Shown: in pieces, positions 10,592 through 25,903 of the stretch
Layout of the letters: each line of letters opens with the position of its first letter
How positions within the stretch are numbered: the first letter of the stretch is position 1
Assembly (NCBI GenBank): GCA_024276115.1
Contig: JAJRXV010000276.1
Span: 1-45,435 of the forward strand
Direction: 5' to 3'
Source: Deltaproteobacteria bacterium
GTDB taxonomy: Bacteria; Desulfobacterota; JAJRXV01
Length of the DNA stretch: 45,435 nucleotides
Position numbers and translations under genes: made by a program
The notes under the pieces: generated by a model
The model's input: only the letters and a program-made list of their open reading frames with translations
Told to the model about the DNA's origin: nothing
The model's database searches: none

Positions 10592-10680
10592 TGGTGCCGA
10601 AGAGGGGAGTTGAACCCCTACAAGATTGCTCTCACTGGACCCTGAACCCAGCGCGTCTACCAATTCCGCCACTTCGGCAC
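10592..10680 (-). tRNA. tRNA-Leu (anticodon CAG), CCA encoded
   Basis: The complement begins GTGCCGAAGTGGCGGAATTG and ends CTCTTCGGCACCA. The seven-base acceptor stem pairs perfectly (GTGCCGA with TCGGCAC). The D-loop contains GGTAGACGCG as in bacterial tRNA-Leu. The anticodon arm CTGGG-TTCAGGG-TCCAG places CAG at the anticodon. A variable arm and a T-arm with GGTTCAA follow. The length of 89 nt including CCA fits a class II tRNA. Confidence 0.96.
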
Positions 10681-25376: not shown

Positions 25377-25532
25377 AAGACTCCTGAGCGACTCCAAAAA
25401 CGTCGTCCTGAATTTGAGGCGCGCCTCTTATTTCAGGATCTGCTAATCCTAATAAATCCAGGTAGATCCCGAAACTAGTTCGGGACGACGGCAGTAGTTT
25501 TTATACATAAAAGCAGGTCGTGCAGGAGTCTT
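25377..25532. repeat. MITE-like inverted repeat, copy A
   Basis: 156 bp bounded by AAGACTCCTG and CAGGAGTCTT. The interior (CGTCCTGAATTT, TTTCAGGATCTG, TAATCCTAATAAAT, TAGATCC, GTTCGGGACGACGGCAGTAG, TTTATACATAAAA) is shared in order with copy B at 34321. A GAGGCGCGCCTC palindrome sits in the left half here but in the right half of copy B. Short frames drawn across it in the ORF track are not genes. The rest of 25282-25795 holds only the promoter listed next. Confidence 0.8.
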
Positions 25533-25724: not shown

Positions 25725-25753
25725 TTGACAAATAGAGAATATGGTATTATATT
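25725..25753 (+). promoter_or_regulatory. Near-consensus promoter of the micropeptide gene
   Basis: TTGACA, 17-nt spacer, TATATT. The predicted RNA starts near 25760, about 55 nt before the TTG start codon. Confidence 0.8.
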
Positions 25754-25813
25754 AATATATAGATTGAACAAGATATGATTACTATTACACTAAAGATGAA
25801 GGAGGTGAGTAAT

Positions 25814-25876
25814 TTGAAAAGATTTATGATTCCAAGAACTGCGCATTGTGATGAAGGCTGCCGGATTTTGTCCTGA
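25814..25876 (+). CDS. 20-residue peptide gene with complete expression signals
   Basis: This is below the ORF-track limit. TTG 25814 has a textbook AAGGAGG 8 nt upstream. The peptide reads MKRFMIPRTAHCDEGCRILS, basic at its start and with a C-x3-C pair. The frame is also open back to an ATG at 25796 (26 residues), but that ATG has no SD. A consensus promoter lies upstream, and a terminator hairpin begins within the stop codon, so the RNA is about 140 nt and carries only this frame. It might be a secreted or modified peptide, a metal/redox micropeptide, or a dual-function small RNA. I recognise no family. Confidence 0.6.
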   Translation: MKRFMIPRTAHCDEGCRILS

Positions 25877-25903
25877 GCAAGACGCAAAACTGCTCATTTT
25901 TTT
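25874..25903 (+). terminator. Rho-independent terminator of the micropeptide gene
   Basis: Stem TGAGCA/TGCTCA around an 11-nt loop, followed by T7. The TGA stop codon is the base of the stem. Confidence 0.75.

Follow-up and report, generated by a model that had tools for sequence, protein, structure and literature searches.

A widespread Cys/His micropeptide gene with an RNA fold at fixed distance that looks like a new kind of ribosome-pausing gene

A gene for a short Cys/His peptide, with an RNA fold downstream at a fixed distance, is common to at least five phyla. From its sequence it looks like a new and widespread kind of ribosome-pausing gene, and with a probability of about 0.6 the module is a programmed ribosome-pausing gene that combines an arrest-type micropeptide with a roadblock in its own mRNA. 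A programmed pause at codon 16 is favoured because four lines of evidence would be accounted for together, namely the conservation of the coding sequence, the interchangeable folds behind it, the exact spacing between the two and the published geometry of ribosome pausing.

The gene in the window and in other genomes

The window is the whole stretch of DNA analysed, 45,435 nucleotides of a Deltaproteobacteria contig, and the gene lies on its plus strand at 25725–25903. All the signals described there in an earlier, sequence-only reading are present: a near-consensus sigma-70-type promoter at 25725..25753 (TTGACA from 25725, a 17-nt spacer, and TATATT up to 25753, with 11 of 12 consensus matches), a perfect Shine-Dalgarno sequence, AAGGAGGTGA, at 25799..25808, a 20-codon reading frame, MKRFMIPRTAHCDEGCRILS, at 25814..25876 with its TGA stop at 25874–25876, and a stem of TGAGCA (25874–25879) and TGCTCA (25891–25896) followed by seven T. 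The start is placed at the TTG codon at 25814, because the nearest relative, a genome of the same family, has GTG at the same place; an in-frame ATG further upstream, at 25796, has no Shine-Dalgarno sequence, and a purine run resembling one precedes the frame in nearly all the copies printed. Seen in one sequence these signals are unremarkable, since folding of the single window copy gave no signal (z-score +1.3) and promoter-like matches in the region equal the shuffled expectation, and it is conservation that makes the gene real. The lack of a folding signal is explained by the fold being a pseudoknot, which standard folding misses.

Over a stretch of 109 nt that comprises the Shine-Dalgarno sequence, the frame and the structure, the same-family relative has 86% identity to the window copy, with four synonymous codon changes and T to I as the sole internal amino-acid change, and nearly all the flanking DNA cannot be aligned, one weak 60-nt match nearby excepted. 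Loss of the frame within conserved flanks, which would speak against a functional gene, is thus the opposite of what is found. The profile search of related genomes that the sequence-only reading had proposed finds the core of the peptide (R[FYW]M-x-[RP]-x-x-A-H-C-x-[ED]-G-C) in about 46 of the 395 genomes of the window's phylum, which is Desulfobacterota-like (profile A1, E<1e-5). A broader profile, A4 (E≤1e-4 per genome), has matches in 44 of 145 Omnitrophota genomes, 33 of 200 genomes of the phylum of Moorella, 32 of 247 Actinomycetota and 23 of 133 Zixibacteria genomes. An exact-pattern scan of named genomes gave at least 116 matches, and those listed include Omnitrophota, Deltaproteobacteria, Zixibacteria, Actinomycetota, Auribacterota and KSB1 as well as the cultured Moorella stamsii and M. 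sulfitireducens. Plasmids gave no match by tblastn, and viral contigs none with the exact pattern.

An alignment of 140 copies was collected from the pattern scan and other loci, and over these copies, in most of which the search pattern itself prescribes H, C, G and C, the core reads [KIVT]-[RKH]-[FYW]-M-[LIV]-[RP]-[RPAE]-[VIT]-A-H-C-[KSGD]-[ED]-G-C. Third codon positions vary in every invariant codon of the alignment, codon positions 1 and 2 of H, C, E/D, G and C do not vary, and Ser13 is encoded by both the AGY and the TCN family. That the frame is functional and coding, as had been claimed, is borne out by this codon pattern and by the profile matches in five phyla. Amino-acid conservation runs from R3 to C16 and breaks off after codon 16, with variable residues beyond, and conservation of the aligned copies ends at column 51. 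Codon 16, which encodes the last conserved amino acid, is TGC for the second Cys at 25859..25861 in the window and specifies Cys in 83 and His in five of the 88 pseudoknot copies described below. Variants found by the profile are HCxEGH (those five), RCSEGC and HCSSGC, and a divergent family, MRWMFPHATHCSTCGSxRW, was found by an RNA-based search; it occurs at L308–L321 in families f8 and f11 of the window's phylum, with pseudoknot and spacing unchanged.

The statement that the peptide lies outside known families also holds, as the window peptide has no match in Pfam (E≤1) or in NCBIfam, and the module is unmatched in Rfam at the gathering score, a permissive search giving only sub-threshold chance hits. 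A tRNA at 10595–10678 on the minus strand is the only gathering-level Rfam match in the window. In open-licence papers no description was found of the motif, of a pseudoknot with a leader peptide, or of an arrest peptide with a metal. A gene of 16–25 codons that occurs in several phyla is absent from the protein and RNA libraries searched.

The RNA fold and its distance from codon 16

Downstream of the peptide lies an H-type pseudoknot, GUC-CY-GGGCA-N-GAC-NNNAAAC-UGCCC. In the window its helix 1 is formed by GTC (25870..25872) and GAC (25881..25883), helix 2 by GAGCA (25875..25879) and TGCTC (25891..25895), and the A-rich crossing loop is GCAAAAC (25884..25890; consensus NNNAAAC). The fold was tested in the 117 distinct copies found by the peptide profile alone, as a guard against bias from the search pattern, and in 88 of them, at the same columns, helix 1 is complete and helix 2 lacks at most one of its five pairs. 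With two further sequences these gave a set of 90 in which 97.1% of the pair cells are formed and 28 cells carry two-sided changes against 3.5±1.6 in shuffles (0 of 500), where selection of the 88 for pairing inflates the percentage and, somewhat, the covariation counts; pairing falls to about 29–37% when the 3' partners are slid by one base. Compensatory changes are seen in both helices, helix 1 being GTC/GAC in 82 copies, GCC/GGC in three, CTC/GAG in two and GAC/GTC in one, and helix 2 having two-sided changes in four of its five pairs. The AAA of the crossing loop is invariant in 90 copies found without RNA in the query, and in other copies the loop carries an in-frame TAA. In L216 and L233 a second complete pseudoknot follows the first with no second peptide, and L236 and L283 contain an additional long hairpin that comes after the A-rich loop and displaces the 3' arm of helix 2.

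Most of the copies without the pseudoknot instead have a perfect hairpin of 6–12 bp that starts in columns 23–26, mostly in column 26, which is the first base of helix 1 in the pseudoknot copies. Nine of these belong to the sample from the window's phylum or to a related Desulfuromonadales genome and about seven to Actinomycetota, and the hairpins have no sequence in common. Several more exceptions are pseudoknots with a one-base indel, and about three copies have neither structure; L115, L259 and L307 keep the peptide with no fold at this position. A search with the RNA pattern only gave 54 matches, and upstream sequence was read for 30 of these, only four of which have no peptide or variant, most of the others being copies already known from the peptide. 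Of these four (L334–L337), three (L334, L335, L336) lead directly to a T-run and resemble terminators that make use of this fold.

The stem in the window had been taken for a terminator. Stem and T-run (25897..25903) are both there, and in the window genome helix 2 might, with the help of the T-run, also serve as a terminator, but the stem is helix 2 of the conserved pseudoknot and the T-run is not conserved: it is absent in the nearest relative, and six or more T in nine nucleotides, the U-run expected behind the GC-rich stem of an intrinsic terminator, occur in 17 of 140 copies. Termination of transcription was for this reason rejected as the main role. Likewise, the proposal that either the peptide or its small RNA is functional stands as far as the frame is coding, but what matters is the coupling of peptide and RNA structure and neither of them alone.

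The fold starts 8 nt after codon 16, also in copies where a stop codon intervenes (at codon 17 or 18 in 12 of 140 copies, at codon 19 in 21), and the distance is kept when the peptide gains one residue upstream, as in the variant MRWMFPHATHCSTCGS; the spacing is therefore not due to preservation of a reading frame. When codon 16 is held in the P site, the fold would stand 11 nt downstream of the first base of that codon. Counted from the first P-site base, the mRNA channel of the bacterial ribosome accommodates 11 nt of downstream sequence, and among the stem-loops tested those at 11–12 nt were the only ones to inhibit A-site binding (PMC7282821). Conservation of amino acids stops at codon 16 and that of the RNA begins with the fold; if codon 16 occupies the P site, the first point is therefore the P-site residue and the second the entry of the channel. 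A stop is reached by column 42 in 137 of 140 copies. Its position varies between codon 17 and codon 25 or later, which means that many copies have a fold that ribosomes must melt in the end. Column 42 is T, which gives TAA, in 42 of the 45 copies with no earlier stop against 60 of the other 95 (p=9e-5), and in the peptide-only set in 23 of 26 against 36 of 62 (p=0.006); judging from these counts, termination within the fold is under selection.

Promoters, neighbouring genes and possible outputs

Promoter-like sequences (at least 10 of 12 matches) stand just upstream of 36 of 110 loci against 3.2 in shuffles, an excess that is partly due to one Omnitrophota clade, and terminator-like hairpins are found within 100 nt in 26 of 116 loci where 0.6 are expected. 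At 87 of 102 loci the gene before the module runs in the same direction, and the next gene lies on the opposite strand in 24 of 96; since about a quarter of the copies precede an opposite-strand gene, a cis-regulatory output is not general. In Omnitrophota a gene for an Rrf2-family regulator follows the module within about 15–40 nt, and behind it come a dicluster ferredoxin and, in many cases, Hcp. The palindrome ATGATAC-N6-GTATCAT overlaps the promoter in 16 of the 25 Rrf2-linked Omnitrophota loci (L122, L150, L188, L217 and others) and is likely to be an Rrf2 operator. Zixibacteria have an ArsR gene before the module and MsrAB after it, and Moorella has Lgt before it and a terminator and then copA after it. 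Neighbours recurring elsewhere are P-type (E1-E2) ATPases with YHS or HMA domains, ArsP-like (ArsP_1) permeases, Metal_resist, hemerythrin and desulfoferrodoxin, with Rrf2 and Prismane/Hcp also among them. This enrichment partly reflects shared ancestry, the roughly 25 Rrf2 cases being essentially one clade, and the neighbours (Rrf2-Hcp, Cu-ATPase/YHS, ArsR-MsrAB) suggest a connection with metal or redox stress. A recurrent downstream gene (MGRLKNKLIAKLFTRFP...) at L131, L152, L186, L209 and L222 resembles by eye that of glycine-reductase protein B, and the same five loci have a geranylgeranyl-reductase-like FAD protein upstream.

The window copy is flanked by lipoprotein-like ORFs, HTH_17 and PHP, which are not obviously metal-related, and no metal or redox gene adjoins it. 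Control of the peptide by the HTH_17 gene that follows it had been suggested, but the HTH has no homologue (E≤0.01) in the same-family genome, where the peptide is retained, and the neighbours differ elsewhere, so this suggestion was given up. A MITE-like element of about 155 bp with inverted ends AAGACTCCTG...CAGGAGTCTT lies at 25377–25532 in the window and has about 40 near-full copies across the genome, 75–96% identical.

The same neighbours, with heavy-metal ATPase, YHS and ArsR genes frequent among them, could also be expected of a trans-acting metallopeptide, in which a released H-C-x-E-G-C/H peptide of 16–25 residues would bind a soft metal, Cu(I) or a different one, and so buffer or chaperone it, and the fold only limits translation or protects the mRNA. 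The interchange of His and Cys at position 16 agrees with this, as do the many stand-alone copies with their own promoter and terminator and a match of one variant to zinc-ribbon models, which is weak and below the cut-off (E=0.0014). The ligand pattern and the neighbours are suggestive of the class of metal-binding micropeptides, the binding itself being putative. We nevertheless consider this reading unlikely, as it leaves unexplained why the fold is fixed to the nucleotide from codon 16, with pseudoknot and hairpin interchanging there, and why conservation spans the whole chain from R3 to C16 and not the ligands only.

The nearby terminators, including the one in Moorella that sits between module and copA, might instead point to a leader peptide of ordinary transcription attenuation, where the position of the ribosome decides whether a downstream terminator forms. 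Here the probability seems low, as regulatory codons do not occur in a run, a co-directional next gene is missing at about a quarter of the loci, 11 of the 26 loci with terminators face an opposite-strand gene, and reading the sequences by eye brought up no pairing that would compete with the terminators.

A programmed pause and its comparison with known systems

In the favoured reading, a programmed pause, the ribosome would meet the fold at the mRNA entry channel once codon 16 has reached the P site, and halt there. The nascent chain of 16–19 residues would at that moment lie wholly inside the exit tunnel, with His11-Cys12-x-Glu-Gly-Cys/His16 adjoining the peptidyl-transferase centre, and the conserved R-aromatic-M...H-C-x-E-G-C chain might strengthen or tune the pause in the manner of arrest peptides. 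The thiol and imidazole ligands could make the pause responsive to a metal ion or to the thiol-redox state, and the replacement of Cys16 by His in the five copies was counted in support of this. The output is the most speculative part: in Omnitrophota the module leads the Rrf2-ferredoxin-Hcp operon and could control its translation or transcription, and at loci with no following gene an action in trans would be required, either of the paused ribosome or of the peptide after release. A bolder form, which we think doubtful, would make the module a programmed-stall gene that acts in trans and is old or has passed widely between phyla, with a stand-alone mRNA of about 150 nt under stress-regulated promoters, and with a parked ribosome carrying a metal- or redox-sensing peptidyl-tRNA as its product in place of a completed protein or a gene downstream.

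A pseudoknot or hairpin at 8 nt from an A-site codon, within the 5–9 nt typical of the stimulatory structure of a -1 frameshift site, has the classical layout of a stimulator, and the -1 frame commonly closes shortly behind codon 16 (by column 23 in 62 of 140 copies), yet a recoding site (frameshift, readthrough or bypass) that yields an extended product is highly improbable: the 140 copies have GGN TGY in place of a slippery heptamer, their -1-frame stops are scattered or missing (50 of 140 have none to column 71), and they have no extended product in common. Frameshifting was dropped as there is no common shifted frame, and insertion of selenocysteine at TGA was also dropped, codon 17 encoding any residue and the stops being variable. 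Hardly any weight falls on a structured regulatory RNA (an aptamer or protein-binding site) with an incidental ORF, for the high conservation of GTCC..GAC..AAAC and the tandem second pseudoknots are set against the strong coding conservation, the scarcity of peptide-less RNA-pattern matches and the substitution of plain hairpins with no common sequence for the pseudoknot.

Arrest peptides of the ErmCL and TnaC type act wholly inside the exit tunnel and are conserved up to the P-site residue, sometimes with a stop codon in the A site; they are cis-acting leaders, and a downstream roadblock structure is not a defining part of them. The micropeptide is likewise short enough for the exit tunnel and conserved up to its presumed P-site residue, although the sequences differ, and its tunnel-spanning conservation (R3–C16) ends at the putative stall codon; a downstream gene of the kind that such leaders control is present in Omnitrophota as the Rrf2 operon, whereas opposite-strand next genes are found at the 24 of 96 loci mentioned above. 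The stimulators of dnaX and HIV frameshifting are similar in that a structure 11–12 nt from the first P-site nucleotide pauses the ribosome (PMC7282821), but the micropeptide module differs from them in having no slippery site or common frameshift product. With a nascent chain apparently coupled to an mRNA roadblock at single-nucleotide spacing, programmed pausing would be directly testable in vitro, and the gene may point to a translational layer of the metal and redox stress response in anaerobes and uncultured phyla.

CruR and CutF are also among the closest known systems. CruR is a copper-responsive DUF2946 uORF of Bordetella (PMC9426467), and the likeness to it consists of a nascent peptide with a Cys motif, a translation pause, which here is inferred, and copper or metal genes nearby. 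CruR differs in having 145 residues with a CXXC and a RAPP arrest motif, in its predicted export and in heading operons (PMC9426467), and a fixed downstream RNA fold is not described for it; the micropeptide shows no sequence relationship to it or to the DUF2946 family of CruR and CutF, the window peptide being unmatched in Pfam at E≤1, and it has no RAPP or PP stalling motif, ending instead in H-C-x-E-G-C. CutF of the cutFOG operon (PMC9973294) is comparable in its CxxxC motif, in translation that resembles stalling and in a stem-loop of the mRNA behind the ORF, but it is exported, with about 90 mature residues and a proline-rich end, and its stem-loop hides the Shine-Dalgarno sequence of the next gene (PMC9973294), where the fold of the micropeptide module keeps a constant distance from one codon. 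CruR and CutF are similar to the micropeptide module in spirit, but are unrelated, larger proteins with different arrest motifs.
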